Virus record (IMG/VR): IMGVR_UViG_3300032282_002747
Coordinates: 1-23,739 of that record
Length of the DNA stretch: 23,739 bases
Direction: 5' to 3' (one strand)
From: a virus
The notes below the pieces were generated by a model, which was not told where the DNA came from, did not search any database, and worked only from the letters and a program-made list of their open reading frames with translations. Each line of letters starts with the position of its first letter. The first letter of the stretch is position 1. Below, in pieces: positions 9,307 through 21,346 of this stretch. A program made the translations under genes and the position numbers.

Positions 9307-9928
9307 TGAAAGCATAGTTTGGATTGCCGATACGCTCAGAAAGTTTCCTGATAATGCACAACGTATCTTGGATTGTTTTTGGCGCGGCCAAATTGACAGT
9401 AAAGTTTGGCTAATAAATCATCTAAATGAATACATGAAGTGGGATGTTGATCAGGAGCATGTGATTCATATTTTTGGCGGATGGTACGGTACATTAGCTA
9501 CTATGCTATTTGATTCAGCTGAGTTTACTATAAAGTTCATACGAAGTATAGACATTGACCCAGCATGCGAACCTATTGCTGATCACATAAACAAAGTAAA
9601 TGAGATGGATAAGTGGAGATTCAAAGCATTTACATCTAGCATGGACGAATGGAAATATGATCATCATCCGACAATAGTAATAAACACTTCGTGTGAACAT
9701 GTGACACAAGATACATACAACAGATGGCATTCAAAAATACCATCTGGAACATTTGTTGTATTACAAGGAAATGATTTCTTCTCTTGCACTGAACATATAC
9801 GTTGCAGTAAAACACTTGATGACTTTGTTTCACAATGTGGGAAATTCAAAGAGATTCTATATACAGGAGAATTTCCTACAGATGTTGGAAGCGGTTACAC
9901 TAGATTCATGTTGATAGGAATAAAGTAA
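9287..9928 (+). CDS. Class I SAM-dependent methyltransferase-like protein
   Basis: This is a 213-residue protein. Around residues 59-68 the sequence VIHIFGGWYG matches the glycine-rich S-adenosylmethionine loop (motif I) of class I methyltransferases. FIRSIDIDPACEPIAD (about 84-99) supplies the acidic residue expected at the end of the second strand. TIVINTSCEHVT (129-140) and GTFVVLQGND (154-163) fit the later strands. The N-terminal 50 residues are helical. The target (sugar, lipid, protein or small molecule) is not visible. It overlaps the upstream glycosyltransferase by 20 bases and abuts the SDR gene with no gap, so it is probably co-translated with both. A small-molecule or glycan methylase seems likelier from context than a DNA methylase; no DNA-methylase motif IV is seen. 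Confidence 0.6.
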   Translation: MTKNFSNESIVWIADTLRKFPDNAQRILDCFWRGQIDSKVWLINHLNEYMKWDVDQEHVIHIFGGWYGTLATMLFDSAEFTIKFIRSIDIDPACEPIADHINKVNEMDKWRFKAFTSSMDEWKYDHHPTIVINTSCEHVTQDTYNRWHSKIPSGTFVVLQGNDFFSCTEHIRCSKTLDDFVSQCGKFKEILYTGEFPTDVGSGYTRFMLIGIK

Positions 9929-10480
9929 ATGAGAAAAGTATTGATATTAGGACACACAAAAGGTATAGGAAAAGCCATATTCGATCGACTAACCTCAGAT
10001 GGACATAGTGTGAAGGGGTTAAGCAGAGAAGATGGTAATTTCAACATGGAGCAGCCAAATTCTAGAGAGCGTGTGGCTAATCTATTAGACCAATATGACA
10101 CGCTAATAATCAGTGCTAATGCAGGCTGGGCAAATGTTGAAATGCTGTATCGTGCCTGGGGTAAGTGGAAAGGTAGAAAAGACAAAACTATCGTAGTCAT
10201 GGGTAGCCACATAACTGAACAACCAAGAAACTTTTCTAATCTTTATCAGATATATAAAATTTCATTGGAAGCCGGCGTCAAGCAACTACAATCAGCTTCT
10301 CCATATCCAAATTTAGTACTACTAAGACCAGGCTGGGTGCAATCAGAAATGTCGGCTAGTGTTGAAGCAGCCAAAATGTCTCCGGATAGTGTTGCTGAAG
10401 TATTGGCATGGACGTTAGATGAAGAAACTAAACCTAGGGATTTCAGGATAACCAATGTCTTATTTGAGCCTAAAAAATGA
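9929..10480 (+). CDS. Short-chain dehydrogenase/reductase (SDR)
   Basis: The protein has 183 residues, short for the classical SDR length of about 250. The Rossmann dinucleotide motif GHTKGIG lies at residues 8-14 (SDR TGxxxGxG variant), the structural NAG at SANAG 62-66, a possible catalytic Ser at GSH 92-94, and the YxxxK pair as Tyr106/Lys110 in YQIYK. RPGWVQSEM (133-141) fits the stretch after the active site. The protein should be a cytoplasmic NAD(P)(H)-dependent oxidoreductase acting on an alcohol/ketone or sugar nucleotide. The C-terminal substrate loop is abbreviated, so the substrate cannot be inferred. The ATG directly follows the upstream stop. The gene overlaps the next by 26 bases. 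Confidence 0.8.
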   Translation: MRKVLILGHTKGIGKAIFDRLTSDGHSVKGLSREDGNFNMEQPNSRERVANLLDQYDTLIISANAGWANVEMLYRAWGKWKGRKDKTIVVMGSHITEQPRNFSNLYQIYKISLEAGVKQLQSASPYPNLVLLRPGWVQSEMSASVEAAKMSPDSVAEVLAWTLDEETKPRDFRITNVLFEPKK

Positions 10481-10982
10481 AGAGATATTCCTGTTCCGTA
10501 AATTGGAACAGACAGTAGACCTTACTAGGCTTCGTGCTGAAACCTGGAGCCTATTAGCCGATGTGCCTTTTGACGATCGAAACCAAGTTTGCTTACAAAC
10601 AGGCGGTATCGATGATTGGTACGAAGGCACAGGCGCAATGCCAAAGGGGGAAGACCTATCAAAATTTGATGATATGCATCCTCAACTAAAAGGCACATGG
10701 TGGGAGTCATTTATAAGAAACTTGCCATATAAGGTAAGCAGGACACGTATTGCCAGGCTGACTCCAAGAAAATGTTACAGCGTACACCAAGACTTCCATC
10801 GTACATTGCATATCGTGATACATACCAATCCAAAATCATATTTTCTTTTTATCAATGAACAGCGATTAATACACATGGAAGCTGACGGGCATATCTGGTA
10901 TGCTGATACCAAACGCCCACATACTGCATTCAATGGTGGTGACGATAGCCGTTTGCATCTAATGATGCGTGTGGATGACTAG
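10455..10982 (+). CDS. Asp/Asn-hydroxylase-type 2OG-Fe(II) oxygenase
   Basis: This is a 175-residue protein. A double-stranded beta-helix iron site is visible: His111-Gln-Asp113 in SVHQDFHRTLHIVIHT, the distal His156 in KRPHTAFNGG, and Arg166 in DSRLHLMMRVD for the 2-oxoglutarate carboxylate. The order H-x-D, R-x-L-H-x-x, PHxxxN, R-x-H is that of the aspartyl/asparaginyl beta-hydroxylase family. That family includes protein hydroxylases and LpxO, which 2-hydroxylates lipid A acyl chains. The substrate here is unknown. The ATG at 10455 has AGGA seven bases upstream and lies inside the end of the SDR gene; the ATG at 10477 is in another frame and soon stops. It is the first of five such oxygenases in the window. 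Confidence 0.78.
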   Translation: MSYLSLKNEEIFLFRKLEQTVDLTRLRAETWSLLADVPFDDRNQVCLQTGGIDDWYEGTGAMPKGEDLSKFDDMHPQLKGTWWESFIRNLPYKVSRTRIARLTPRKCYSVHQDFHRTLHIVIHTNPKSYFLFINEQRLIHMEADGHIWYADTKRPHTAFNGGDDSRLHLMMRVDD

Positions 10983-10997
10983 GCAATTATATACCAA

Positions 10998-11005
10998 CAT
11001 AAATA
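10998..11005 (+). promoter_or_regulatory. T4-type late promoter motif, leaderless spacing
   Basis: CATAAATA lies just after the 2OG oxygenase gene. The expected start six bases beyond its last A falls on 11011, which is the A of the next ATG. No ribosome-binding site lies between the motif and the ATG, so a transcript from here would be leaderless. Confidence 0.45.
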
Positions 11006-11010
11006 GCAGT

Positions 11011-11628
11011 ATGAAAATAGTCACTACATCAAGCGATACTATTGAACCAGCACTCTATAATCTATTAGTTCGATTCGTACAGCAAATTATTCTTGACAAT
11101 CCAAAAATTCCAGCAAGCAAAAATATGGGTCTTGATTCTGAATCAGGACTTCTTTGGAATATTGAAAATAAGAAACGCTGGACGTCGGAGAAGGGTGAAA
11201 TTGCCATACTATTAAACGATCAGGAAGAAGTAGTTGGGGTCAGTTGTGTTGAACGAACAGAGCAAAGTTTATTGTCCATTGGTGGTATACGCACCTGGGT
11301 ATTGAAACCCTATAGGGGAAAGAATGTAGTATCTAACATGCTACTAGGATCTAACCTTGAATGGTCGACGCAAAATGATATGGCTGGCATGATGCTGACA
11401 TTTAATGATTACAATAAATGGATATACGATGGCATCAAAAAGAAAACTTCAGGGAAAGCACCTGGACTCGATAAAATTTGGAGTGACTGGTGGGATGACT
11501 GCATCGTGATGTCAAGACCAATAAAGGTTAGATATGTTAATCAGTGGTGTGTTATTAAGCCAACAGGAAGACATTCGCCGGATATATTGAAATCATTGAT
11601 GGAGGGTCTTGATGCTATCTCCGAATGA
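11011..11628 (+). CDS. GNAT-like N-acetyltransferase candidate
   Basis: The protein has 205 residues from the ATG at 11011. An upstream in-frame codon at 10969 would overlap the previous gene by 14 bases and lacks support. GEIAILLNDQEEVVGVSCV (residues 62-80) fits the central beta-strands of a GNAT fold. GIRTWVLKPYRGKNVVSNML (92-111) matches motif A, where the R-G-K-x-V loop would bind acetyl-CoA pyrophosphate. Residues 115-135 would be the following strand and helix. The acceptor is unknown; amino-sugars, peptides and proteins are all used in this superfamily. The gene may be read from its own late promoter as a leaderless message, as well as by read-through. Confidence 0.6.
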   Translation: MKIVTTSSDTIEPALYNLLVRFVQQIILDNPKIPASKNMGLDSESGLLWNIENKKRWTSEKGEIAILLNDQEEVVGVSCVERTEQSLLSIGGIRTWVLKPYRGKNVVSNMLLGSNLEWSTQNDMAGMMLTFNDYNKWIYDGIKKKTSGKAPGLDKIWSDWWDDCIVMSRPIKVRYVNQWCVIKPTGRHSPDILKSLMEGLDAISE

Positions 11629-12598
11629 ACTTTACAGCAAATTTGAATTCACAGAAAACAATCATATAAAGTATTGGTATGATAATGATCCTTCTAAGAT
11701 ATTCAGAGAAGACGACTGGCAACAAACAGTTGGTACAGTAGGGTATAGTATACGTCCTAAGCTAACATTTCGAGGCGAACTTATCCGTACAACAAAGATA
11801 ATTTCACGTAAGCACAAAGAGCCAATGGCAGTATTTTTCTCTGGTGGACTTGATAGTGAAATCGCATTGCAAGCCTGGATCGAAAGCCGTGCTCCATTTA
11901 GACCAGTCATTGTAAAATTCAAGGATGACCTAAACAGCGCAGACGTGAATCAAGCAACTGGCTTCTGTGAGGCAGCTGGATTGACACCAACTTATCTAGA
12001 CTTTGATCCTGTGGCATTCTACGAAAGCGGAGACTGGCAGCGTATATGCAAAGAATATCAGAGCTATACATTTTATCAGCAGGTTCTATGCAAGGTTGCT
12101 GAGGACTTTGCTGAACCGATGATTACTATTGATGAAGTGGAAGTAGAGAAAACACCTGACCTGGATCACTTACTGAAAACAGGTGAGCACCGTATGCATT
12201 GGGTGTTCTTAAAGAAAGAAGATCAGGATGGAGTATGGCGTAGATTTGTTGCCAAGACTGGCATACCAGCATACAACAACTTCTATACATATAACCCAGA
12301 GACCATGCTGTCTTTCCTTGAGGGGTATGTTGTAAACAGACTGATAACCGATCAGATGCCAGGCAAGATGGGATGGACATCTAGCAAGAACGAAATTTAC
12401 GGGTCATTGACACGTTATCCATTTGATCCAAGACCCAAGCGCACAGGAGTAGAAAAGCTATTCCATATATGGACAGATGTAGAACATCAGTGTGCTAATC
12501 TATTATTTGCAACTGAACCTAGGATTTATGAGTTTGGTGCACATGAATTGATAAAAAATATGAAACAAGGCAAGGTGAGCGTATGCAAGACAATATGA
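11612..12598 (+). CDS. PP-loop ATP pyrophosphatase, asparagine-synthetase-like
   Basis: This 328-residue protein starts at the ATG at 11612, five bases after GGAGGG. The PP-loop SGGLDSE lies at residues 77-83 after the strand PMAVFF, as in enzymes that adenylate a carboxylate or amide (asparagine synthetase, beta-lactam synthetase, QueC, NAD synthetase families). About 70 residues precede the loop. There is no N-terminal glutaminase domain with a nucleophilic Cys2, so ammonia or another amine would have to be supplied. ITIDEVEVEK (123-132) may stand where related enzymes have their second ATP-site segment. The product could be an amide, an aminoacyl adduct or a modified base; context favours small-molecule or surface-polymer chemistry. 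It overlaps its GNAT-like neighbour upstream by 17 bases. Confidence 0.68.
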   Translation: MLSPNELYSKFEFTENNHIKYWYDNDPSKIFREDDWQQTVGTVGYSIRPKLTFRGELIRTTKIISRKHKEPMAVFFSGGLDSEIALQAWIESRAPFRPVIVKFKDDLNSADVNQATGFCEAAGLTPTYLDFDPVAFYESGDWQRICKEYQSYTFYQQVLCKVAEDFAEPMITIDEVEVEKTPDLDHLLKTGEHRMHWVFLKKEDQDGVWRRFVAKTGIPAYNNFYTYNPETMLSFLEGYVVNRLITDQMPGKMGWTSSKNEIYGSLTRYPFDPRPKRTGVEKLFHIWTDVEHQCANLLFATEPRIYEFGAHELIKNMKQGKVSVCKTI

Positions 12599-13164
12599 AG
12601 TGGTTAGATATGTCTAGCCTGGACGATATCAAATCATTAGCACAAGCGACCTATGCTAATCCGAAAGATACTTACCCAGTAGCATTACAGCCCGATTCGC
12701 GTATGTTTGAATTGTTCTTGGTACCAGAAGATATAGGCGGACATGAATGGCGTAAAACACTAGGCGTATATGATAAAGAAGGCAACCTAGTGATGGTTGC
12801 TGGTATACGACGTATGCAATATCAGCCTGTATGGTTGTTGAGCTTTGTACTCAGTAATCAAAAGAACATGGCAATGGTACGTAATTTCCGTGATATGATC
12901 ATGGCGTTATGTGACTATCATGAAAGCATTGGTATCAATGAATGGTATGTATCTAGTCCAGGTGGTAGAGAAGAAAGCTACCGTAAAATTATGCGTTTCC
13001 TGCGCGAGAGATATATAACATGGGTAGAGTGTACTATTCCGGCTGGAACTCGTAGTCCGTGGCCAGTTTATCATAGTATGCTAGGTTATGCAATACACAA
13101 TTTTGACGTGAATCTACGGAGGTATGTGAAACGTAGAGAACGCATGGAGCCAGACGAAGAATGA
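12583..13164 (+). CDS. Unknown 193-aa protein, possible GNAT-like fold
   Basis: This is a 193-residue protein. The ATG at 12583 lies five bases after AAGGTGAG and overlaps the PP-loop gene by 16 bases; the ATG at 12595 is an alternative. KEGNLVMVAGIRRM (about 66-79) followed by a VWLLSFVLS strand and a long helix (MAMVRNFRDMIMALCDYH) is the strand-strand-helix order of GNAT enzymes, and YVSSPGGREESYRKIM (about 126-141) could follow. The R-x-x-G-x-A pyrophosphate loop is not convincing, so the acyl-CoA site may be altered or the fold may be different. The C-terminus is basic, then acidic. It is joined to the desaturase gene by an ATGA overlap. Confidence 0.5.
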   Translation: MQDNMKWLDMSSLDDIKSLAQATYANPKDTYPVALQPDSRMFELFLVPEDIGGHEWRKTLGVYDKEGNLVMVAGIRRMQYQPVWLLSFVLSNQKNMAMVRNFRDMIMALCDYHESIGINEWYVSSPGGREESYRKIMRFLRERYITWVECTIPAGTRSPWPVYHSMLGYAIHNFDVNLRRYVKRRERMEPDEE

Positions 13165-14069
13165 TAACACTAAAACAATTTATAGATGATAATGTCGCAA
13201 CATATCGTGCGACACAACAAGTTCCGTATATTTTTGCGGTACTTATACCTTTTCACTTTTTAGCAATATACGGGCTATATCTCGGATATCAAAACTGGGA
13301 CTGGATCTATGCCGCCTGGTTTGTTGCTGGATGGGTAGTTTTTGGCGGACTTGGTGCATGTGTTGGACTGCATAGATGGATCAGCCATAAGGCTATTGAA
13401 GTACGTCCGTGGATGAAACCCGTTATGCATTGGATAATGGTATGTAGTTGTCAAGGCAGCGCCATATGGTGGGCCGCATTGCATCGTGGATATCATCATG
13501 CACACGCCGACAATCCAGAAAGAGACATCCATACTCCTAAGGATGGATTCTGGCATGCATATCAGGGTTGGATGTGGAAAGTAAAACATGATACGATCAA
13601 TTTGAAATATGGTATTGAGTATCTCAAGGACAAGAGTTTAGTGTGGCATCACAAACACTACAATCAGATCCTATGGGGAACACTGGTATTGATGATGGCA
13701 ATTGATCCAATGTTTGCATTTTGGTTCTTTGTGATTCCTACGATGTTCTCACTGCATAGTGATAGTATAGTAAATTCTGTATGCCATATTCCAGGTGCAG
13801 GCTATCGTTTTTATAACACAAAAGATCAGAGTGTTAACGTACCTTTGGTTGGGTGGTTTTGTTGGGGACAAGGTTGGCACAATAATCATCATAAGAGCCC
13901 AAGGCATTTTGACTTTGGTACTACTGTAAGTGGCAAGTGGTGGGAATTTGATCCTTGTTTGTTGCTGGTACCATTTATATCGCCCTGGCACGAAACCAAG
14001 CGTCTCTGGGGTCAGTGGTATAGAGCCTGGCGACATAATGAGAATGCAACCCCAGTGGAGATCGTGTAA
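13161..14069 (+). CDS. Membrane fatty-acid desaturase (delta-9/SCD type)
   Basis: The protein has 302 residues with hydrophobic segments near 22-42, 48-68, 88-106 and 172-198. The three histidine boxes of acyl-CoA/acyl-lipid desaturases are present: HRWISH (71-76), HRGYHH with downstream HAD (108-116), and HNNHH (240-244) in GQGWHNNHHKSPR. These bind the di-iron centre that inserts a cis double bond in a fatty acyl chain. The family needs an electron donor (ferredoxin or cytochrome b5); none is seen here, so host proteins would supply electrons. It should sit in the host inner membrane. The ATG is in an ATGA overlap with the previous gene, and the stop overlaps the next ATG (TAATG). Length is close to bacterial DesC-type enzymes. 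Confidence 0.88.
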   Translation: MITLKQFIDDNVATYRATQQVPYIFAVLIPFHFLAIYGLYLGYQNWDWIYAAWFVAGWVVFGGLGACVGLHRWISHKAIEVRPWMKPVMHWIMVCSCQGSAIWWAALHRGYHHAHADNPERDIHTPKDGFWHAYQGWMWKVKHDTINLKYGIEYLKDKSLVWHHKHYNQILWGTLVLMMAIDPMFAFWFFVIPTMFSLHSDSIVNSVCHIPGAGYRFYNTKDQSVNVPLVGWFCWGQGWHNNHHKSPRHFDFGTTVSGKWWEFDPCLLLVPFISPWHETKRLWGQWYRAWRHNENATPVEIV

Positions 14070-14701
14070 TGGGTTGGCTTTGCGTTGCTGCCAATATCGA
14101 GAACGAAGTAGTATATGCATGTGAAGATATGGAAGAGTTGCAATGGTTGACTGAACCATACTTCAATGTCATTCCTAAAATATTTGCCCTCAAGGACGAA
14201 GAAATAGAATGGCTACGTGCAGGACAGTTTGACTTCCGCATTCGCTACAATGGTCATCGCGCTGTGTACTTAGAGAAGATTGAACGCAAAGACGAAACAC
14301 GCCAGCTGAGCAAGCTGATATTATACAAGCACAAATTATTCAATCTATTCAGAGGACGTATTGAACATGGCTGGCACAAAGCCAAAAGCTTGATGCCAGA
14401 ACTTGATTTGGTATATGAGCGCAAGTACAAAGAAGCACTTGACATACTAGAAAATAAAGAAAAATCCATATACTACCATGACGGATTGGTTGCAGATTAT
14501 GCGCTTGAAACAGGAATGAAGATAGAGCATGCAGCCAGGCTGATAAAAGTCAAACATGAAAATGCAATGACGCACGTGCGCAAGTTGGAAAGATTAAGGA
14601 TTAGACATATGACCGCTATCAAGCGAGCAAAGGCTTTAGAGGAATTGGAAAAGGTCCACGGTGCTATTGACAAAGACCTCTTTACCAATATGTTACTATG
14701 A
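14069..14701 (+). CDS. Unknown 210-aa phage protein, helical charged C-terminus
   Basis: The function is not recognised. The 210-residue protein has a short globular N-terminus (MGWLCVAANIENEVVYACED) and then long, strongly charged helical stretches. The C-terminal part (about 155-205), from ADYALETGMKIEHAARL onward, alternates Arg/Lys and Glu on amphipathic helices. That pattern recalls the C-terminal segments of small phage proteins with repeated charged helices, some linked to tail-fibre assembly, but no specific family is assigned. It lies between the desaturase and the second PP-loop gene with TAATG and ATGA junctions, so it is tightly co-expressed with them. A scaffold or adaptor role is possible; there is no direct evidence. 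Confidence 0.58.
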   Translation: MGWLCVAANIENEVVYACEDMEELQWLTEPYFNVIPKIFALKDEEIEWLRAGQFDFRIRYNGHRAVYLEKIERKDETRQLSKLILYKHKLFNLFRGRIEHGWHKAKSLMPELDLVYERKYKEALDILENKEKSIYYHDGLVADYALETGMKIEHAARLIKVKHENAMTHVRKLERLRIRHMTAIKRAKALEELEKVHGAIDKDLFTNMLL

Positions 14702-15780
14702 CCCAGAAACTTGTTTATTACACACCACAGGCGCTGTTCAGCATACCTGAGATCAAGCAGAAGTATGCCAAAGAAGCCGCGTTCTGTAGCATGTTCAATG
14801 GATCAATCAGTTTGATTGATCGTACAGGAGCAATTGATATCCCTCCTGTTGACTGTCTTGTGCTGGATCATATTCCAGAGGCAGCAAAGCCACGTAGCTT
14901 CAGAGAAATATGCGAAGATAGATGGCAAGGAATCGTAGATCAAATTGATGCTGGTAAAGACATTGTTATCTTCTATTCCGGAGGTATTGATAGTACCTTG
15001 ATCGTGTGTCTTGCATTGATGCATCCAGATTGGACCAAGCATGCAAAACATATACACTTGGCATTCAACGAAGATTCCGTGAGAGAAAATCCTACATTCT
15101 TTGAAAAGTATATCATACCTGGATTTGCTGATCGATTGATCAATGCAAGCGAATTCCATACACTGATACAGGATGATCGTTATGTATGTGTCACAGGCGA
15201 ATTTGCTGACAACATCTTTGGTAGCTTGACACTCAAGAGCTATATGGATCACACCGGAGACTTTTCAGTGATACATGGTAACTTTGAAACACAAGGGTTG
15301 CCCTGGCTGTTGGCAAAAGTCAAAGACCATACACAGGTCGTAAATTGCCACGAGATGCTCAAAGTTTTGCTTGAGCAAGCACCAAGGAAGATGTTATCAA
15401 ATCATGACTGCTTCTGGTGGTTGAATTTTGCTACCAAATGGCAAGCAGTCAAGTTCCGTCTAGTAAGCCATGCTCCTACTCCGGAGTTGGTCAATGCCAT
15501 GGCCCAACGTGTGTTGCATTTCTTTGAAACCAAAGAATTCCAGCTATGGGCATTGTACACAGACGAAGATAAAGTATTGACAGACTGGTATAGTTACAAG
15601 TTACCAGCTAAAAAATTGATCTTGGAATGTAACGGAGACTTTGAATACTTCAAGTATAAGACCAAGTATCCTTCAATACCTAGTCTTACACGTTATGCCA
15701 ATATGCACGACTTCATCTACCTGGATGAAACTACAGGAATCTTTACTGCTTCAAAGAGCTTCCTGGCATTAGGATCGTGA
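14698..15780 (+). CDS. Asparagine-synthetase-like PP-loop ATPase, no glutaminase domain
   Basis: This is a 360-residue protein. The PP-loop SGGIDST lies at residues 94-100 after the strand DIVIFY. TGEFADNIFGS (166-176) corresponds to the G-E-G-A-D-E-x-F-G-G segment of the asparagine synthetase B synthetase domain, so this is a closer relative of that family than the gene at 11612. The N-terminal 90 residues do not contain the Cys2 glutamine amidotransferase domain. The family adenylates a carboxylate and then forms an amide. Precedents without amidotransferase activity include beta-lactam synthetases and surface-glycan amidating enzymes. The start is an ATGA junction. The 3' end overlaps the convergent TauD-type gene by 64 bases. 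Confidence 0.75.
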   Translation: MTQKLVYYTPQALFSIPEIKQKYAKEAAFCSMFNGSISLIDRTGAIDIPPVDCLVLDHIPEAAKPRSFREICEDRWQGIVDQIDAGKDIVIFYSGGIDSTLIVCLALMHPDWTKHAKHIHLAFNEDSVRENPTFFEKYIIPGFADRLINASEFHTLIQDDRYVCVTGEFADNIFGSLTLKSYMDHTGDFSVIHGNFETQGLPWLLAKVKDHTQVVNCHEMLKVLLEQAPRKMLSNHDCFWWLNFATKWQAVKFRLVSHAPTPELVNAMAQRVLHFFETKEFQLWALYTDEDKVLTDWYSYKLPAKKLILECNGDFEYFKYKTKYPSIPSLTRYANMHDFIYLDETTGIFTASKSFLALGS

Positions 15781-16625
15781 TCAACATTCATACGCCACAT
15801 CAAGCGTTCCTGTCCATCGTCGAGCTCACATGCAGTTCGACGATGCACAAACGGAAAGTTGTCGTATATAACTAAATCTGTTTCGTCCCAATGATGTTCA
15901 TATGTACAATCAGGCTGCTTTGACATCTCTTCTAGCATCTCAGCAACAATACCTGTGCCTCGCGGCTGACCGCCTACTTTGGTATCTACGATCCATCCTT
16001 CATTTTGTGTTTCATCTACGTAGTAGTTGACACGCGGACAATACTCGTCTGTGATTGGATGCTTGGTCATGCTAGGAAATTCTTGTAGATCTTTTCCAGG
16101 CTCATACCAGCTTTGTTGGACGATGCGAGTCATTCCCCAACGACGTTTAAGATCGTCGTTGACACCCTTAAATGCCTTAGGGGTATTCATCCAGATAGTA
16201 AAACCAGCTTCGGGATTGGGGCAGGTACGCATGTAGATCGCTCTGTGCGGGAAAGCATAGCTAACAGCATTGGGAATATCTGCATGCCATGGCATTTCTC
16301 TGTCACCTAGTCTTGCACTGATCTTGTTGCTGATAGCACTGATATATTCGGTACGACCATCTGGCATGATTATAGGAATAGACTTTTCTTTGCTGTAGGA
16401 ATATCTATCTTCCTTCCACGGAATACCAAAGCGTCTTGATACTCTCCAGAACTGGAACGGATCAAGTTTGATTTTCTTGAACACAAGTATCTTGCGTTCA
16501 TACAACATCTTGGCCAGGCTACCAGGTACGATATTTTCTAACCAATCGTGTGGACCTTCAAATATAGAACCCCAGTCATCAAATATATCAGATGCTCTAG
16601 TTCTAGGATCAACTTTATCAGACAT
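15717..16625 (-). CDS. TauD/TfdA-type 2OG-Fe(II) dioxygenase
   Basis: The protein has 302 residues, matching the usual TauD length of about 280-300. The iron ligands are visible as His114-Ala-Asp116 in MPWHADIPN and His261 in NFPFVHRRT. Arg274 and Arg278 in ERLMWRMNVD fit the 2-oxoglutarate-binding region. The segment VIYDNFPFVHRRTA aligns by pattern with the DNRATQH region of taurine dioxygenase. The family hydroxylates small molecules next to a carboxylate or sulfonate; many members act in natural-product pathways. The ATG overlaps the upstream oxygenase gene by eight bases and has GGAGGA nine bases before it. It is the last gene of the minus-strand cassette. Confidence 0.82.
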   Translation of the reverse strand: MSDKVDPRTRASDIFDDWGSIFEGPHDWLENIVPGSLAKMLYERKILVFKKIKLDPFQFWRVSRRFGIPWKEDRYSYSKEKSIPIIMPDGRTEYISAISNKISARLGDREMPWHADIPNAVSYAFPHRAIYMRTCPNPEAGFTIWMNTPKAFKGVNDDLKRRWGMTRIVQQSWYEPGKDLQEFPSMTKHPITDEYCPRVNYYVDETQNEGWIVDTKVGGQPRGTGIVAEMLEEMSKQPDCTYEHHWDETDLVIYDNFPFVHRRTACELDDGQERLMWRMNVDHDPNARKLFEAVKIPVVSSR

Positions 16626-17364
16626 TATAAAAGTCCTCCAGACCTGTTTTCTTCAAGAACGCCGGCGAAAATACACCGTCGACTCTCATGCTCCAGCCAG
16701 TGTATTGGCATGGATCGCTACCATGCCAATTGGCATTGTCAAACAGCGCAACACGGCTGGTGACATTGTGTTGCACTTTTTCATCATCGTCCCATACCCA
16801 AAAATTCTTACGTCCGTCTAGGCTCAACCAAATGAATTGATCTTTACGGCTTACACCGTCTGGATAATCACGATGCCTAATGCTTGATACACCGGGCTCG
16901 TTTACAAAGAACACAACACGCCCATATTCACTGAATATGTTCTGTTCTTCTAACCAGACTTTCAAGAAGTTGAAAAATTTGAAAGCAGGAGTGTCAACAC
17001 AATGCGCTGCCTTGTGCTTGTTAAAATAATCTCCGCCGCGTACTGTGCGTAGATGTATTGCTTCGTTTAGCGCAACCACGTCGTACATGTATTTGCAGAA
17101 CAACTGTATCTTGGGAGCAGACCCCAGTAGCTTTAGCATATTACGATGCTCATAATTTTCATCGTCGATAAGCTTCTTTGCAAAGTCACCAAGTTCAACT
17201 AATGATTGATCATACAGATTATCTTGTGCTCCTACTATACTTGGATATCTAAAAGGATGACTAGCGGCTAATGCAGCCGCTATTTTATGCTTTTGCAAAG
17301 CCAATGATTGTATATCAATATGAGGTTCTAGATCAAACCAAGGCTGTCCTTTGATGTTGTGCAT
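16618..17364 (-). CDS. 2OG-Fe(II) oxygenase / cupin-like, 248 aa
   Basis: In this 248-residue protein the C-terminal half has a jelly-roll pattern: His164-Arg-Asp166 in SIRHRDYPDG, then QFIWLSLDG and NFWVWDDD strands. The distal His214 in DNANWHGSDP and Arg227 in WSMRVDG complete an H-x-D...H...R facial triad plus 2-oxoglutarate arginine. The N-terminal 150 residues are mostly helical, with HLRTVRGGDYF near 104-114. The exact subfamily is uncertain: it may be closer to the JmjC/cupin group or to the Asp/Asn hydroxylases. It starts one base after the acyl carrier protein stop codon, so the two are very probably co-translated. Confidence 0.72.
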   Translation of the reverse strand: MHNIKGQPWFDLEPHIDIQSLALQKHKIAAALAASHPFRYPSIVGAQDNLYDQSLVELGDFAKKLIDDENYEHRNMLKLLGSAPKIQLFCKYMYDVVALNEAIHLRTVRGGDYFNKHKAAHCVDTPAFKFFNFLKVWLEEQNIFSEYGRVVFFVNEPGVSSIRHRDYPDGVSRKDQFIWLSLDGRKNFWVWDDDEKVQHNVTSRVALFDNANWHGSDPCQYTGWSMRVDGVFSPAFLKKTGLEDFYNV

Positions 17365-17365
17365 G

Positions 17366-17608
17366 TCAGTCTTTCTTTATTAACCTATCAATTGCATTGG
17401 CTAACTGTTCAACTGTCTTGACAACTTCGAGGCCGTCATCAGATAGTTCAACGCCAAACTCTTCTTCAACTGCCATGACCATTTCAATTGAATCAAGGCT
17501 ATCGAGTCCTAGGTCTTCGACGAAGTTTGAATTAGGCCAAACATCTTTGACATCAATCTTGCAGTATTTTGCAACAACTGCTTGTATTCTTTCTAGTGTA
17601 TCGTTCAT
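17366..17608 (-). CDS. acpP-like: Acyl carrier protein (ACP)
   Basis: This 80-residue carrier protein starts at the ATG of an ATGA overlap with the upstream oxygenase; an in-frame codon at 17620 would add only four residues. The 4'-phosphopantetheine attachment site is the motif LGLDSLDSIE, with Ser37 as the modified residue, followed by EMVMAVEEEFGVEL on helix II/III. Length, acidic composition and pattern are those of type II fatty-acid-synthase ACPs (about 77-85 residues). A host phosphopantetheinyl transferase would have to activate it; no such gene is seen here. It lies between two 2OG oxygenases in a five-gene operon, which suggests that it presents an acyl or aminoacyl thioester to them. 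Alternatively it could replace host AcpP. Confidence 0.93.
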   Translation of the reverse strand: MNDTLERIQAVVAKYCKIDVKDVWPNSNFVEDLGLDSLDSIEMVMAVEEEFGVELSDDGLEVVKTVEQLANAIDRLIKKD

Positions 17609-18180
17609 AGTGCGTCCCATATTACGTGTATCCTATCTGTTTTGCCTCGGTTCCAAAATGAGTGCGGCAAGCCATTCTCTAACCACCACACAGTTCCTAC
17701 AGGCATGAAGCATTCTTCTCCGTCAACTTCGCAGGCAGCATCGGGATTGGTATGCAATACCAAATGATAACGTCCGTACTTGCTGAAGTAGTCGCCTTCA
17801 TCAGTATGACGTGCTACTTCGCATTCGGCTAGTAGTTTACTAAGGAATATACGACCAACATCTTTACATCCAAGATGTTTTGATATACCCATGACACGAT
17901 CGTATATTGCACTGAGTGCTTTCATGTTCAATAGCATTTTATTATCAAACACTTCTAAGATATCATTTGCTTTGCGTGTGTCGTATCCTGCAGGTGCCAT
18001 GATATAACGTAGATGTATATTTTCAGTATGACGTAATGCAGCCGTCATACGTTGTCTACTTTGATTTTGCACCCAGGCTATCTTTACTTGATCGCTATCA
18101 CCGACTAACCATTCAGTTGCCAACGGCATAGTTTGGTCAGTCATCAAGAGCTTGAAATTTTTATAAGTTGTTTCGCTCAT
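17605..18180 (-). CDS. Asp/Asn-hydroxylase-type 2OG-Fe(II) oxygenase
   Basis: This is a 191-residue protein. The iron site His125-Thr-Asp127 lies in EVARHTDEGDYF, followed by KYGRYHLVLHTNP (134-146), then the distal His172 in NGLPHSFWNRG and Arg183 in TDRIHVIWD. The order matches the aspartyl/asparaginyl beta-hydroxylase family, as in the gene at 10455. The shared segments R-x-H-x-V-x-H-T-N-P and PHxxxN suggest the two are distant paralogues, although they now stand on opposite strands about 7 kb apart. The start overlaps the upstream stop by one base (TGATG) with AAGGAA before it. The stop overlaps the ACP start (ATGA), so ACP translation is probably coupled to this enzyme. Confidence 0.8.
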   Translation of the reverse strand: MSETTYKNFKLLMTDQTMPLATEWLVGDSDQVKIAWVQNQSRQRMTAALRHTENIHLRYIMAPAGYDTRKANDILEVFDNKMLLNMKALSAIYDRVMGISKHLGCKDVGRIFLSKLLAECEVARHTDEGDYFSKYGRYHLVLHTNPDAACEVDGEECFMPVGTVWWLENGLPHSFWNRGKTDRIHVIWDAL

Positions 18181-18605
18181 CAGCTGTTTCCTTTTATCAA
18201 TTCCGGATGATACATTTCAATTAGGCTTTCAAGTTCTCCGGCAAACATTCCTGCTGGGTCTTTGCTAATTTCAATTTCAAATATATGATCGTACATTGTG
18301 AGGTTTAACTCTTTTGACAAAGAATCAACAGCTTCTTTTTCGGCCTTGAATCTATCTGTATTTTTTAGATATGCTAACTTCAGCATATCTGCAGATGTCC
18401 AACAGCGCCATTGATAGCATGCAGAATCTGTTTCTGTTTCCCAATGTCCTAGATAACCTGTAGAAATGGCGCAACCCCAGGTTAGGCTAGAGTAGCTAAG
18501 TATCCATGTACGAATTGATGATGTTGTGTTCCCAAACCATACATCAGTTTTGGAGTCGTTGATGGAAGGAAATTTTCCATTCCATTTACGTAATAGCATC
18601 ATCAT
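18180..18605 (-). CDS. Unknown 141-aa Trp-rich protein, first gene of the ACP cassette
   Basis: No family is recognised. The protein has 141 residues and seven tryptophans among the first 69 (positions 8, 23, 34, 43, 55, 66 and 69), several next to Gly, Ser or Thr. The C-terminal half is helical and acidic. No transmembrane helix or known active-site motif is visible. The start codon could be any of three consecutive ATGs; the first has GAGG eight bases upstream. A late-promoter-like motif at 18628-18635 sits just before it. As the first gene of an operon with two further oxygenases and an ACP, it may be a partner or substrate-binding protein of the pathway, but only by position. Confidence 0.58.
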   Translation of the reverse strand: MMMLLRKWNGKFPSINDSKTDVWFGNTTSSIRTWILSYSSLTWGCAISTGYLGHWETETDSACYQWRCWTSADMLKLAYLKNTDRFKAEKEAVDSLSKELNLTMYDHIFEIEISKDPAGMFAGELESLIEMYHPELIKGNS

Positions 18606-18627
18606 TTGCTGTACCTCATTATACTAG

Positions 18628-18635
18628 TATTTATC
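18628..18635 (-). promoter_or_regulatory. T4-type late promoter motif, minus strand
   Basis: On the minus strand the bases read GATAAATA, one difference from TATAAATA. The motif lies in the 46-base divergent gap between the genes starting at 18605 (-) and 18652 (+). The expected RNA start, near 18622, leaves a leader that includes the GAGG before the ATG at 18605. No equally good motif is seen for the plus-strand gene. Confidence 0.5.
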
Positions 18636-18651
18636 GTAGGAGTTGCGACGT

Positions 18652-19113
18652 ATGGAATTGATCGAGATCATTGAATATCCGTTAGTTTTTTTAGTATGGA
18701 CATTTTGTTTATACTGGATACATCGTGTTGGTCATCGCATTCCTTTTGTTAACAAGTTTCACCAGGATCATCATTTATACATCAATCGCAAGGGCGGAAC
18801 CACATGGCATTGGAATAATTTGTTACTTTATAATGATACATGGAAAAGCACTATAGATTTATGGATCACAGAAGTTATTCCAACACTTATATTTTCAGCA
18901 GTGACCGGACATTGGTGGGTTATCATCTTCTATTATTTTTGGGCAGCATTACTACAAGAAGTAATTGAACATAATCCTAAATTTGATTGGTATCCGTTTA
19001 TTACAAGCGGTAAGTGGCATCTGGTGCATCATCGCCATCAACGCAAAAACTATGGACTGTTTATTCCTCTATGGGATAAGCTCTTTAACACATACAAACA
19101 TCATAATGGTTGA
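18652..19113 (+). CDS. Membrane fatty-acid hydroxylase / sterol desaturase superfamily
   Basis: The protein has 153 residues. The histidine clusters of the family are present: HRVGH (24-28), HQDHH (37-41), EH at 106-107 and HLVHHRH (123-129), followed by the closing pattern GLFIPLWDKLFNT. Hydrophobic segments are near residues 9-23, 70-87 and 88-105. These enzymes use a di-iron centre in the membrane to hydroxylate fatty acyl, sphingoid, sterol or carotenoid substrates. It is short for the family (usually over 200 residues) but has all the His boxes. The start is the ATG at 18652, nine bases after AGGAG; a TTG at 18643 abuts that site and is unlikely. The carotenoid-hydroxylase subgroup is an alternative. 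Confidence 0.82.
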   Translation: MELIEIIEYPLVFLVWTFCLYWIHRVGHRIPFVNKFHQDHHLYINRKGGTTWHWNNLLLYNDTWKSTIDLWITEVIPTLIFSAVTGHWWVIIFYYFWAALLQEVIEHNPKFDWYPFITSGKWHLVHHRHQRKNYGLFIPLWDKLFNTYKHHNG

Positions 19114-19115
19114 AC

Positions 19116-19937
19116 ATGAGACATCTTATACCTAACGCTTTCACAAATACACGAGCTAACGATAACATCGCTATAGATATGAAGTGGCAACGTCCTATCA
19201 TATTTGTAGAAGCACCTGGAACAACATCATACGACATATTTTTATATTGGCATCGACGTTCAATGCGTGATCCAAACTATGCTGGATTTATGGATCTCTT
19301 GCTAAATGTCAGGGGAGTCAATGACATTGGATGGACTGGAGAATATACCAGCCCCACAGATGTAGTTACATACGAAGAACCATATCTAGTTGAAGGTGAT
19401 GTATCAGTTAAAACAAGAATTGGTACTATTAAAGAAGCATTTGAAAAACGTGTTGATTTTGCCAACACACTTTTTATCAATGCACGTTCAACATATATAC
19501 GATATTACACTGAACCAGTTCATCCAGACTTACAAGAGAAACAAAACATGGTAGAAGATCAATTCTTTAGAGCAGCTAGACTAGTATTCATTGAAAAGAG
19601 CTTTGATCCTATATTCCAACTAGTACGTATGTCCAGGCAGGCTCTCCCGGATGATGCTGAGTTTGAGATTACACAACTACAGCTTGACTGGTATGTTGCA
19701 TCTACAATGCGATATCGTATGCTTAAAGAAAAGTGGAGAAAGAAATCTGCTATACTAGGTGTTGAATGGTATCAAAAAGGAAAGATGGAACTTAGTTGGC
19801 CGGATAAGGTTACCGCACAGTTAAACATGCCAGTTGATCAGTGGTGTCGTGCATCTTCTTTTCCTAAGAGGACATACAAGTCCCCAACTAACTTCAAAGA
19901 AGCAGATGCTTATCTTAAAGAGAAGCTGGCAAGCTAA
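19116..19937 (+). CDS. Unknown 273-aa protein
   Basis: No family is recognised. The ATG at 19116 is three bases after the upstream stop; a TTG at 19110 is an alternative start. The N-terminal RPIIFVEAPGTTSYDIF (about residues 26-42) looks like a strand followed by a Gly/Ser/Thr loop. That raised the thought of a sulfotransferase-like PAPS loop, but the rest of that signature is missing. The middle (105-165) is helical with an ARSTYIRYYTEPVHP segment. The C-terminal part is basic and Trp-rich (KEKWRKKSAILGVEWYQKG). No membrane segment. It follows the fatty-acid hydroxylase closely, so the two are probably co-transcribed. It overlaps the convergent oxygenase gene by 23 bases. Confidence 0.55.
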   Translation: MRHLIPNAFTNTRANDNIAIDMKWQRPIIFVEAPGTTSYDIFLYWHRRSMRDPNYAGFMDLLLNVRGVNDIGWTGEYTSPTDVVTYEEPYLVEGDVSVKTRIGTIKEAFEKRVDFANTLFINARSTYIRYYTEPVHPDLQEKQNMVEDQFFRAARLVFIEKSFDPIFQLVRMSRQALPDDAEFEITQLQLDWYVASTMRYRMLKEKWRKKSAILGVEWYQKGKMELSWPDKVTAQLNMPVDQWCRASSFPKRTYKSPTNFKEADAYLKEKLAS

Positions 19938-20517
19938 AAACTTTTGCGGCTTCTGGTAACGACATTATTGGTGAAAATCTTAAACTGAAAATAAGTCTAG
20001 TGGTGTTATTGTTGTTGATGACAGAATGCCATTCGCTTGTGCTAACAAGCATCGGACGGTCTAAACAAACAGTAGCGACAGTATCAAGGTCTTCCATATC
20101 TGCCATTGGAACACGTACATTACCGTAAGGACTATGCTTCTCTCCTTCGAGCCTGGTAATTTTTCCAGGCTTGACTTTATACCAAGACATATAGCTACCA
20201 ACATCGCATGTTAGCGGAATATTTAATGCCCATGGATGAGAAATGAATCCATTCTTGATTACTTCTGGATCACTGCTAGGATCTTTGTGTGGATTCATAC
20301 AACTGTTTGGTCCAGTTACTCCAAAGAATGCAGAAGCTGGTTTCAATCCTCTACCGACTATCCAAGGTTCGTTGTTAAATACTGACAGATCACTACGTTC
20401 GACACTGACAGTATTTTTTTGTGGCTTCTTAAGATGTTCGGCTTGATACTTGTCTTTCCATAGACTGAATATCTTATTAAGATCGATATCAAGATGTGCA
20501 ACAGGAAAATTATACAT
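19915..20517 (-). CDS. 2OG-Fe(II) oxygenase (Asp/Asn hydroxylase-like), 200 aa
   Basis: This 200-residue protein shows a beta-helix iron site as His77-Lys-Asp79 in MNPHKDPSSDP. Then come ALNIPLTCD and MSWYKVKPG strands, the distal His164 in STSEWHSVINNN and Arg174 in TTRLIFSLRF. From memory this arrangement is frequent among marine phage 2OG oxygenases of unknown substrate. The N-terminal part (1-60) is helical and charged. A late-promoter-like motif lies six bases before the ATG with no ribosome-binding site between, so the mRNA may be leaderless. The gene stands alone on its strand between two plus-strand genes. Confidence 0.72.
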   Translation of the reverse strand: MYNFPVAHLDIDLNKIFSLWKDKYQAEHLKKPQKNTVSVERSDLSVFNNEPWIVGRGLKPASAFFGVTGPNSCMNPHKDPSSDPEVIKNGFISHPWALNIPLTCDVGSYMSWYKVKPGKITRLEGEKHSPYGNVRVPMADMEDLDTVATVCLDRPMLVSTSEWHSVINNNNTTRLIFSLRFSPIMSLPEAAKVFSLPASL

Positions 20518-20556: not shown

Positions 20557-20835
20557 ATGTATCTAGTTAAGAAAACATTTCGTAAGAACAAAGACGCACA
20601 GTTTTTTGAAGATGGCGCATTTGAAGCATATCAACAAAAAATGTATCGTACAAAATGGTCATACGAACATAAGATAGTAGACTCTGATACACTAAGACAT
20701 ATCCATGTTTGGCCAAATGAAGACATATATCAAAGATGGGCAAACGATCCAACTGTGCTAGTGTTTGTATCAAATCTTGACAAGTACAACAAGGAAAATT
20801 CTATTTCCTGCAACGAAATACACGCTAAGGTTTAA
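20557..20835 (+). CDS. Small 92-aa protein, possible dimeric alpha/beta-barrel fold
   Basis: This is a 92-residue protein with AGGAG at 20547-20551, five bases before the ATG; an ATG at 20553 is out of frame. The sequence HIHVWPNEDIYQRWANDPTV (about residues 48-67) resembles the pattern near the C-terminal helix of antibiotic-biosynthesis-monooxygenase (ABM) and related dimeric ferredoxin-like proteins, where W-x-s-x-e-x-y-x-x-W-x-x-d-p is common. This is weak evidence and there is no catalytic residue to point to. It is divergent from the oxygenase at 20517 and overlaps the convergent thioesterase gene by 11 bases. If the fold is right it could act on an aromatic or polyketide-like intermediate; otherwise unknown. 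Confidence 0.55.
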   Translation: MYLVKKTFRKNKDAQFFEDGAFEAYQQKMYRTKWSYEHKIVDSDTLRHIHVWPNEDIYQRWANDPTVLVFVSNLDKYNKENSISCNEIHAKV

Positions 20836-21346
20836 TACGCCTATTGGGATTAACAAACGTACCATGCGCCTTGGCAGCGACTGTACCCATGGTACCCCAC
20901 CTGGCAAGATCCTGCTGATACACCATTGCCTCTAACTGTATCAATTGTCTTGAACCGGCAGCTAGTGTGACATGACACATCAACCATCTATTGGCACGTA
21001 CAGGATGGAGGAATTGTGTGCTCAGTTGTATAGTATGCGCAAACTTACCTTCAGTCATGTTATAACAGAACGCACCCATACAATGATCCAAGAATGTCAT
21101 TGTGGCACCACCATGTAGAACCTTGGCAGCATTCAAGTGCCTGGGTTCTACATACCACGCAAAGCTAGCCTCCATGTCGTTGTCCCATCGGAACCATACA
21201 TCCATTGTATGAGAGATGTAGTCGTTCCAGTCTTTACGACGTTGGCTGTATCCTTGTTGATTAAGGACTTCCGAGCACAAACTTAGTACGGAACTCGTAG
21301 AGTTCTCGTTGGCTAATTCCGTGCTGTGATCTGATGGCTTTGTCAT
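20825..21346 (-). CDS. PaaI-type hotdog thioesterase
   Basis: The protein has 173 residues. The hotdog domain spans about 45-165: HLNAAKVLHGGATMTFLDHC (70-89) is the PaaI/YbgC-type signature, with the HGG loop at 78-80 and Asp87 on the long helix, and HTIQLSTQFLHPVRAN (104-119) is the next strand pair. These enzymes hydrolyse acyl-CoA or acyl-ACP thioesters. The first 40 residues are Ser/Asn-rich and not part of the fold. The ATG at 21346 has AGGA at the right distance (seven bases), although it gives an 86-base overlap with thyX; a later non-ATG start is possible. Given the ACP in this window, release of an ACP-bound acyl group is an attractive role. It is last in the minus-strand block. Confidence 0.78.
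   Translation of the reverse strand: MTKPSDHSTELANENSTSSVLSLCSEVLNQQGYSQRRKDWNDYISHTMDVWFRWDNDMEASFAWYVEPRHLNAAKVLHGGATMTFLDHCMGAFCYNMTEGKFAHTIQLSTQFLHPVRANRWLMCHVTLAAGSRQLIQLEAMVYQQDLARWGTMGTVAAKAHGTFVNPNRRIKP

Follow-up and report, generated by a model that had tools for sequence, protein, structure and literature searches.

A phage gene set of conserved order joins iron oxygenases to PP-loop ligases and GNAT acyltransferases and may build or decorate an amide compound

The window, that is the whole stretch of DNA analysed here, comprises 23,739 nt of viral DNA (IMG/VR record IMGVR_UViG_3300032282_002747, positions 1-23,739) and its features are collected in Table 1. An earlier note on this DNA had claimed seven candidate non-haem iron oxygenases, and open frames are indeed present at all seven coordinates, with five of the seven exceeding the Pfam cut-offs; the iron-oxygenase cluster as observed there holds and is confirmed. 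Both membrane di-iron enzymes were rightly named, as each lies above its cut-off and keeps its histidine boxes invariant (26/26 rows for the desaturase, 22/22 for the FA_hydroxylase-family enzyme). All five proteins taken for 2OG-Fe(II) oxygenases carry the H-x-D...H...R motif, with Pfam agreeing for those at 10455, 15717 and 17605 and not for those at 16618 and 19915. The labels of the surrounding genes fared unevenly: the PP-loop label stands, both proteins keeping SGGxD cores, and so does the GNAT-like label, by profile for the protein at 10969 and by predicted fold for that at 12583. The acyl carrier protein (ACP) and the thioesterase were borne out and the SDR fell below its cut-off, while the methyltransferase, for which no Pfam family passed its cut-off, has a relative so annotated in phage Mosig; no profile backed the glycosyltransferase label.

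Table 1. Features of the window, with coordinates, strand and the evidence for each assignment
Feature	Coordinates	Strand	Evidence
Two related proteins, glycosyltransferase-like by eye	7649..9306	+	family in 48/87 groups; no Pfam or PDB-profile support
Methyltransferase-like protein	9287..9928	+	family in 57/87 groups; Mosig relative annotated putative methyltransferase
SDR-like protein	9929..10480	+	adh_short 22.6 bits (cut-off 26.6); family in 6/87 groups
2OG-Fe(II) hydroxylase, Cpz10-like Asp_Arg_Hydrox (AAH)	10455..10982	+	PF05118 29.9 bits (cut-off 22.6)
GNAT-a acyltransferase	10969..11628	+	profile to 3d8p, E 4.9e-5
PP-loop-1 (PPL1), putative AMP-forming amide ligase, NAD-synthetase/Asn-synthetase type	11609..12598	+	motif and profile
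GNAT-b acyltransferase	12583..13164	+	predicted fold
Membrane di-iron desaturase	13161..14069	+	PF00487 43.1 bits (cut-off 29.7)
Protein without assigned function beside PP-loop-2	14069..14701	+	gene-order conservation
PP-loop-2 (PPL2), Asn-synthetase-like	14698..15780	+	SGGxDST motif
TauD-type 2OG-Fe(II) oxygenase	15717..16625	-	PF02668 66 bits (cut-off 27)
2OG-Fe(II) oxygenase candidate OGc	16618..17364	-	motif; no 2OG Pfam family
Acyl carrier protein	17366..17620	-	PF00550 57.5 bits, above cut-off
2OG-Fe(II) hydroxylase, second AAH	17605..18180	-	PF05118 48.5 bits (cut-off 22.6)
Unknown protein, window lineage only	18180..18605	-	no family found
Di-iron FA_hydroxylase-family membrane enzyme	18643..19113 (start 18652 in the earlier note)	+	PF04116 65.9 bits (cut-off 31)
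Unknown protein, window lineage only	19110..19937	+	no family found
2OG-Fe(II) oxygenase candidate OGd	19915..20517	-	motif; PF05118 15.8 bits, under 22.6
Hotdog thioesterase (4HBT), peripheral	20825..21346	-	PF03061 41 bits (cut-off 20.6)

The AAH at 10455 keeps H111-x-D113...H156...R166 invariant in 25/25 alignment rows, and the second AAH has the same invariant residues. The family profile of the former matched the structure of Cpz10 (7v4f) at E 1.2e-41 with 168/178 positions covered. Cpz10 is described in PMC9814697 as the caprazamycin beta-hydroxylase, with a nucleoside-antibiotic intermediate as its substrate, and its iron triad, 2OG-binding Arg and relay His/Thr residues were taken from there. 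Seven AAH residues, H111, D113, H119, T124, H156, R166 and H168, all invariant in 25/25 rows, equal Cpz10 H115, D117, H123, T128, H160, R170 and H172 at a constant offset of 4, a match by residue number and not by direct alignment to Cpz10, and three further residues of the Cpz10 path (Y112, H144, M104) are the commonest letter of the family in 18, 16 and 16 of the 25 rows. AAH is thus like Cpz10 in its iron triad, 2OG arginine, relay residues and full-length profile match, but its genes sit in a phage setting. The solved structures nearest to the PF05118-type hydroxylases are this nucleoside-antibiotic hydroxylase and proline hydroxylases, the lipid hydroxylase LpxO being outside the comparison, and the link to Cpz10 offers a concrete starting substrate class for AAH.

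The TauD enzyme keeps H114-x-D116...H261...R274/R278 in 12/12 rows, and its profile matches 7tcl, ScoE and carbapenem synthase, the last at E 9.5e-10 over a short stretch only. Its assignment as a ScoE-type isonitrile fatty-acid oxygenase was rejected, at 31.7 bits against the NCBIfam NF049937 cut-off of 400. OGc and OGd are candidate 2OG-Fe(II) oxygenases on the invariance of their motifs, which read H164-x-D166...H214...R227 in 17/17 rows and H77-x-D79...H164...R174 in 27/27, the window row included in both. No curated family profile recognised either: the Pfam scan gave OGc no 2OG family and only Lectin_C at E 0.098, and the OGd alignment of 27 members, window included, had zero Pfam matches at E 0.01. 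In profile-profile comparison with the Asp_Arg_Hydrox-type alignment both matched weakly (E 0.062 with probability 0.9 and E 0.011 with probability 3.8), with their histidines in register, which is no proof. The desaturase profile led to the stearoyl-CoA desaturase SCD1 (4ymk, E 1.1e-21), of which the protein is a genuine relative, so a lipid or acyl chain may be involved.

Between these oxygenases lie the ligases and acyltransferases. PP-loop-1 has S78, G79, G80, D82 and E84 invariant in 32 rows and matches NAD synthetase by profile (3fiu, E 2.1e-6), and PP-loop-2, with SGGxDST invariant in 21 rows, gave only a weak profile match (best E 0.006). Neither could be accepted as an asparagine synthetase (PF00733) with glutaminase, as PP-loop-1 scored 14.1 and PP-loop-2 (Asn_synthase) 16.8 bits against a cut-off of 21, and the Pfam scan found no glutaminase or other domain in either protein. 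The AlphaFold2 model of GNAT-b (pLDDT 82.1) has the GNAT fold as predicted structure, with a Foldseek match to 3g8w (E 3.1e-8) and a superposition on 4lua with Z 17.3, rmsd 2.2 and 148 aligned positions. Inspection by eye of the GNAT-a and GNAT-b alignments did not reveal the usual R/QxxGxG/A acyl-CoA loop, therefore the donor is not clearly CoA and may for both enzymes be something else. For the protein at 14069 the model (pLDDT 93.9) matched no PDB fold at E 0.001; of the 59 relatives found in the fetched loci, 57 immediately precede PP-loop-2. In 6 groups PP-loop-2 has a GNAT-b relative next after it (hhalign probability 93.6).

To describe conservation, related loci were sorted into 87 groups and the best-labelled locus of each was counted. 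Same-strand neighbours recur as GNAT-a>PPL1 (45 groups), PPL1>GNAT-b (46), GNAT-b>desaturase (44), AAH>GNAT-a (38) and 14069>PPL2 (47). With GNAT-b as the only bait, PPL1 and GNAT-a were recovered in 35/35 groups and the desaturase and AAH in 34/35, and with OGc as the only bait AAH was recovered in 16/16 groups, the desaturase in 15/16 and PPL1 in 14/16; these pattern scans cover close relatives only, so that more distant GNAT-b or OGc genes may escape them. The 2OG-family genes number on average 2.27 per locus in the 67 groups with PP-loop-1 and 5 in total in the 20 loci without it. This exceeds a chance association, but the contrast is somewhat circular, since these same families supplied the profiles and each group was represented by its best-labelled locus. 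The conserved core is GNAT-a, PP-loop-1, GNAT-b and the desaturase, accompanied by at least one 2OG hydroxylase, and the 14069 protein with PP-loop-2 forms a second module; the iron oxygenases are variable, numbering up to seven in the window and ten in locus L029. One or more modules are missing from many phage loci and the outer genes differ between lineages. Within reach of the fetched loci, relatives of the ACP, of the proteins at 18180, 19110 and 20557 and of the thioesterase are confined to the window and the two lineages closest to it. The conserved order and co-occurrence support the proposal that phages carry a pathway whose neighbourhood is shared, and the survey of related phages found that neighbourhood common to relatives rather than its members carried independently.

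The T4-type gp23 exceeded its cut-off in 8/18 of the relatives' records. In L005, L006 and L125 the module lies between the tail tube and tail sheath genes, in L099 it adjoins the tail tube gene (each of these tail families identified through one representative), and in the window it is downstream of virion proteins. Phage Mosig (MT647606) resembles these loci in having two Asp_Arg_Hydrox genes, a desaturase, a TauD gene, a GNAT and a methylase beside its tail fibres, with a 2OG gene on their other side, but PP-loop-1 and PP-loop-2 were not found in its 24.6-kb stretch. Outside phages, PP-loop-1 was found in only 18/290 sampled genomes of the bacterial phylum surveyed. Parts of the set adjoin it in 6/13 bacterial loci, and in the other 7/13 no partner was found by profile. 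L231 has a desaturase, two AAH, PPL1 and GNAT-b; L212 has AAH next to PPL1, and also a fusion of PPL1 with a GNAT domain; L223 has a desaturase, two AAH, two PPL1, an SDR, a GNAT and a B12-type radical SAM protein. A radical SAM protein of that same kind is also present in phage loci. Among the genes listed, no phage tail genes were seen by eye in the bacterial loci holding parts of the set. At E 0.01 PADLOC models matched 0/10 proteins (9 window proteins and 1 bacterial), so none was recognised as a known anti-phage defence protein.

A conserved oxygenase set around two ligases and two acyltransferases, found partly in bacterial genomes also, suggests that these phages build or decorate some small molecule or surface compound. 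We lean towards a phage pathway acting on a compound that contains an amide or amino acid and is either free or attached to a surface; the pathway would build this compound or decorate it, and its chemistry and product we infer. The PP-loop enzymes would use ATP to activate a carboxylate for amide formation, and the GNATs would move an acyl or aminoacyl group. Hydroxylation of an amino-acid part would fall to the Cpz10-like hydroxylases and the TauD enzyme, and oxidation of an acyl chain or other membrane-bound part to the desaturase and FA-hydroxylase-family enzyme. The outcome would be an amide compound in oxidised form, with amino acids or acyl groups as its source, free or surface-displayed; since the genes stand among those for the virion and tail, it is probably produced late in infection. 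In the clavulanate, carbapenem and tabtoxin pathways, too, a PP-loop enzyme that forms an amide is paired with a 2OG oxygenase, and the TauD profile touches carbapenem synthase itself, but the PP-loop proteins of the window are only distant relatives of the named families. The acyl or lipid reading of the earlier note, which preferred a surface lipid or glycolipid, is weaker. It retains the SCD1-like desaturase in its favour; the ACP, thioesterase and SDR, however, are peripheral, and acyl handling is therefore not the core, which is made of PP-loop and GNAT proteins.

Three alternatives were weighed, with probabilities given as mutually exclusive. It seems unlikely that the genes remodel the surface without a new amide scaffold, altering host LPS or lipid (decoration of O-chains or acyl groups, superinfection exclusion), even though the module lies in the tail region and lipids are the usual substrates of membrane desaturases and of the FA-hydroxylase family. 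The scanned proteins included none recognisable as an LPS or lipid acyltransferase, the ACP and thioesterase are not conserved and the glycosyltransferase label lacks profile support. In pelagimyophages, where a beta-hydroxylase is a core gene, host recognition clusters do carry glycosyltransferases, for which an LPS or lipid surface change was proposed, together with LPS genes and, in freshwater phages, a stearoyl-CoA desaturase, as described in PMC7029224. Modification of the virion, with a tail or fibre protein hydroxylated, acylated or glycosylated, is more doubtful still: the module stands among tail genes or after virion proteins and the Mosig oxygenase genes lie beside tail fibres, but by eye no tail genes were seen among those listed for the bacterial loci, a relative of membrane acyl-CoA desaturases would hardly be expected to modify a protein, and the nearest solved hydroxylases act on small molecules.

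We regard as improbable, and as the least probable of the three, that unrelated auxiliary genes, each acting alone (for example in 2-oxoglutarate control or DNA repair), have gathered in a hypervariable region. The earlier note had spoken of single 2OG oxygenases in marine T4-like phages, which understates what is in print, since according to PMC3037559 14/16 T4-like cyanophage genomes have numerous 2OG-Fe(II) oxygenases, up to five in its table, tied there to 2OG level and DNA repair. These enzymes, and the cyanophage desaturases known through citing papers, belong to the same superfamilies in T4-like phages; the literature thus already has several 2OG oxygenases per T4-like cyanophage, as well as a desaturase from freshwater pelagimyophages, but what PMC3037559 tabulates is oxygenases per genome, without an ordered PP-loop and GNAT module. 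The varying outer genes would suit independent acquisition, and against it stand the conserved order, the co-occurrence with families not used as bait and the partial reappearance in bacterial genomes.

Phage auxiliary genes are usually read singly, and here iron oxygenases travel with two ligases and two acyltransferases in a core order kept across many phage lineages. If the amide-type pathway that we favour does make one compound, these would be phages with their own specialised chemistry. Tentatively, one may go further and imagine in T4-like phages an ancient class of specialised-metabolite pathways, partly common to bacteria of the Bdellovibrionota type. In such pathways an amide scaffold would be made by PP-loop ligases with paired GNATs and oxidised by interchangeable 2OG, di-iron and B12-radical-SAM enzymes, which would yield a family of bioactive or surface-displayed compounds made during infection. 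The core, at four to six genes, is small enough for expression and test.

The virus record, which the window spans in full (23,739 bases), opens with virion proteins and holds ThyX further on, with seven candidate iron enzymes in between. A protein of the virion region carries a run of GGY repeats. All seven enzymes proposed in the earlier note were found at the coordinates it gave, and five of them scored above curated profile cut-offs. Unlike these five, the two 2OG-Fe(II) oxygenase candidates OGc (16618) and OGd (19915) did not pass. Their HxD...H...R pattern was unvarying in 17 and 27 aligned rows, respectively, including the window (lowest identity to the window protein 29 and 18 percent), and judged by this pattern both are probable 2OG oxygenases. 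The accompanying genes named in the earlier note fared differently. The ACP and the hotdog thioesterase proved genuine by profile cut-offs, both PP-loop proteins (PPL1 and PPL2) possess SGGxD cores, and the two GNAT-like genes were borne out, GNAT-b by a GNAT fold in its predicted model and GNAT-a by profile. The methyltransferase label goes back to a likeness seen by eye and to a phage Mosig relative that is annotated in this way, and the glycosyltransferase-like label, given by eye, found no profile support.

Features of the window and of related viral or bacterial loci (L-numbers), with start and end positions
Feature	Record	Start	End
Virion-region protein with GGY-repeat run	window	3521	4516
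AAH, Asp_Arg_Hydrox-type 2OG-Fe(II) hydroxylase	window	10455	
GNAT-a	window	10969	11628
PPL1 (PP-loop-1)	window	11609	12598
GNAT-b	window	12583	13164
Desaturase	window	13161	
14069	window	14069	
PPL2 (PP-loop-2)	window	14698	15780
TauD	window	15717	
OGc	window	16618	
AAH, second copy	window	17605	
FA-hydroxylase	window	18643/18652	
OGd	window	19915	
ThyX	window	21261	22151
IscU/NifU-like protein	L025, virus	5888	6265
B12-binding radical SAM protein	L014, phage	10732	12261
B12-binding radical SAM protein	L223, bacterial	4433	5974
Two mnmA-annotated PP-loop proteins	L056, Pseudomonas phage Cygsa01	10730	12879
PPL1 domain fused to GNAT domain	L212, bacterial	10987	13116
PPL1 locus following family-2 glycosyltransferase-like proteins	L225, bacterial	2022	8508

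Using the desaturase, FA-hydroxylase, PPL1 and PPL2 families as baits, and adding the window and three phage-record stretches, we obtained 210 loci, which were reduced to 87 groups by merging near-identical contigs; the best 80 of 280 relatives were used from the PPL1 scan and the best 80 of 193, representing 79 distinct loci, from the PPL2 scan. By clustering, the non-bait families GNAT-a (59 groups), GNAT-b (57), methyltransferase-like (57) and AAH (55) were almost as frequent as the baits PPL1 (66) and desaturase (64), the group counts by clustering and by profile alike taking in all four bait families. For GNAT-b the profile gave 47 groups as against the 57 by clustering, and 8 groups contained a GNAT-b relative. 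Gene order recurred as well, as on the same strand PPL1 was followed by GNAT-b 46 times, GNAT-a by PPL1 45 times, GNAT-b by the desaturase 44 times, AAH by GNAT-a 38 times and 14069 by PPL2 47 times. Two scans which detect close relatives only gave similar pictures: GNAT-b as bait yielded 62 loci in 35 groups (PPL1 35, GNAT-a 35, desaturase 34, AAH 34), and OGc yielded 31 loci in 16 groups (AAH 16, desaturase 15, PPL1 14). The survey of related phage genomes for co-occurrence thus found a shared neighbourhood, and not the independent carriage which the earlier note had set against its own proposal. Our verdict is that the island is real, conserved and uncharacterised, and probably serves biosynthesis or decoration.

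Its core is module A, made up of GNAT-a, PPL1, GNAT-b and the desaturase, usually with AAH along. Module B, 14069 with PPL2, was found without module A too; in 6 groups PPL2 was followed by a GNAT-b relative. TauD, OGc, OGd, the FA-hydroxylase family, a third PP-loop protein and a B12-binding radical SAM protein are variable members, and the SDR family occurred in 6 groups. The radical SAM protein is common to phage loci and a bacterial locus. For the ACP, the thioesterase and the genes at 18180, 19110 and 20557, relatives came from no lineages but the two closest to the window, although some loci stop short of where these genes could appear. An account built on ACP and acyl handling would therefore fit mainly the window lineage. 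The 2OG-family genes averaged 2.27 per locus with PPL1 (67 groups) and numbered 5 in total over 20 loci without it, a contrast that favours PPL1 loci because the profiles were built from the same families and the best-labelled locus represented each group. The window has five 2OG and two di-iron enzymes, and a single virus contig (L029) has nine 2OG-family genes and one desaturase within about 20 kb. A small protein resembling, by eye, the IscU/NifU iron-sulphur scaffold lies in a module-bearing virus locus, and its family occurs in four groups.

Compared with solved structures, the AAH family profile had its best match in Cpz10 (7v4f), with E 1.2e-41 over positions 8-175 of 178, followed by L-proline cis-4-hydroxylase 4p7w (E 6.7e-12) and 1e5r (E 2.4e-4). 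Matched by residue number, the seven invariant AAH residues coincide with those reported in Cpz10 as iron ligands, as the 2OG-binding arginine and, for three of them, as second-shell residues, and the other three residues named for Cpz10 agree with the commonest letter of the AAH family. In caprazamycin biosynthesis Cpz10 acts as a hydroxylase on an aminoacyl-nucleoside intermediate (PMC9814697). The desaturase is related to SCD1 (E 1.1e-21) and PPL1, by profile, to NAD synthetase (E 2.1e-6). Sulphur transfer by the PP-loop enzymes is disfavoured, since neither the PPL1 nor the PPL2 alignment has Cys in an invariant or near-invariant column, and this, together with the NAD-synthetase kinship, makes amide formation the likelier activity of PPL1. 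GNAT-a and GNAT-b, examined by eye, lack the usual CoA loop. Taken together, the Cpz10-like AAH, the SCD1-like desaturase, the kinship of PPL1 and the GNATs suggest that the product would be an oxidised amide compound made from amino acids or acyl groups, which may be free, lipid-borne or glycan-borne.

We also considered 14069 as a carrier protein. It lies directly 5' of PPL2 in 57 of 59 relatives, a count in which copies lacking PPL2 are under-seen as PPL2 was a bait, and its C-terminal residue is aliphatic, with a flush end, in 38 of 39 aligned rows (alignment A14), which suggested its C-terminal tail as the ligase substrate. However, in the predicted model, confident overall, the C-terminal end falls within helix 190-209 (last block pLDDT 80) with no free tail, and the model had no PDB fold match at E 0.001; the carrier role is thus not supported by the model. 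An isonitrile lipopeptide pathway was set aside likewise, as the best NCBIfam match of TauD, ScoE, stayed far under its cut-off and the ACP does not travel with TauD. A defence system was rejected as PADLOC gave no match at E 0.01 for ten proteins (nine of the window, one bacterial), and spread by plasmids as a search of 72,556 plasmid records with the window PPL1 gave nothing at E 0.001.

T4-type capsid gp23 was above cut-off in the records of 8 of 18 relatives, including records of 452,799 and 524,565 bases; the record that comes nearest to the window, 63 kb long and itself a fragment, gave none. Three loci (L005, L006 and L125) have the module flanked by the genes for tail tube and tail sheath, and in L099 it adjoins the tail tube gene. 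In the PPL1 tree (106 rows, 87 virus and 19 bacterial), 76 of the 87 virus rows formed one supported clade (95/99), separate from the 19 bacterial rows and with deep splits; 11 virus rows fell outside it, several of them long-branched, and one of the 11, L127, grouped with bacterial rows. Among 50,697 phage records there was no DNA match to window 10455-14069 and no match to the window PPL1 at E 0.01, while PPL2 had weak matches in one record, phage Cygsa01, and the desaturase matched three. The desaturase match in "Acinetobacter phage MD-2021a" (two near-identical records) was set aside, being surrounded by bacterial housekeeping genes. The PP-loop proteins of Cygsa01, distant relatives of PPL2, lie near baseplate genes.

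Several elements are familiar from the literature. Numerous 2OG oxygenases in T4-like cyanophages have already been published (PMC3037559), and PMC7029224 describes a beta-hydroxylase in pelagimyophages, a stearoyl-CoA desaturase in freshwater ones and glycosyltransferases within a host recognition cluster linked to the tail. The isolate Pelagibacter phage Mosig has a similar locus, but without the PP-loop genes there; a word search of its genome announcement (PMC7892664) returned none of 'desaturase', 'hydroxyl', 'dioxygenase', 'auxiliary', 'biosynthesis' or 'tail fiber'. For the ordered PP-loop/GNAT/desaturase/hydroxylase module we found no published description in the literature searched, which lay mostly outside subscription journals.

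One scan of a genome collection produced just one relative, the locus L212 from a Bdellovibrionaceae genome assembled out of metagenome data, where AAH adjoins PPL1 and one protein has its PPL1 domain fused to a C-terminal GNAT domain. Within its phylum, taken as Bdellovibrionota, PPL1 was detected at E 1e-10 in 18 of 290 sampled genomes, and 13 loci from 12 of these 18 were examined. At least one partner family was present in six (L212, L223, L225, L226, L227 and L231), with most of the phage core present again in L231 and L223; by profile, seven of the 13 had none. The bacterial loci thus lend partial, independent support to a functional link between the module genes. Several proteins resembling, by eye, family-2 glycosyltransferases precede the PPL1 locus in L225.
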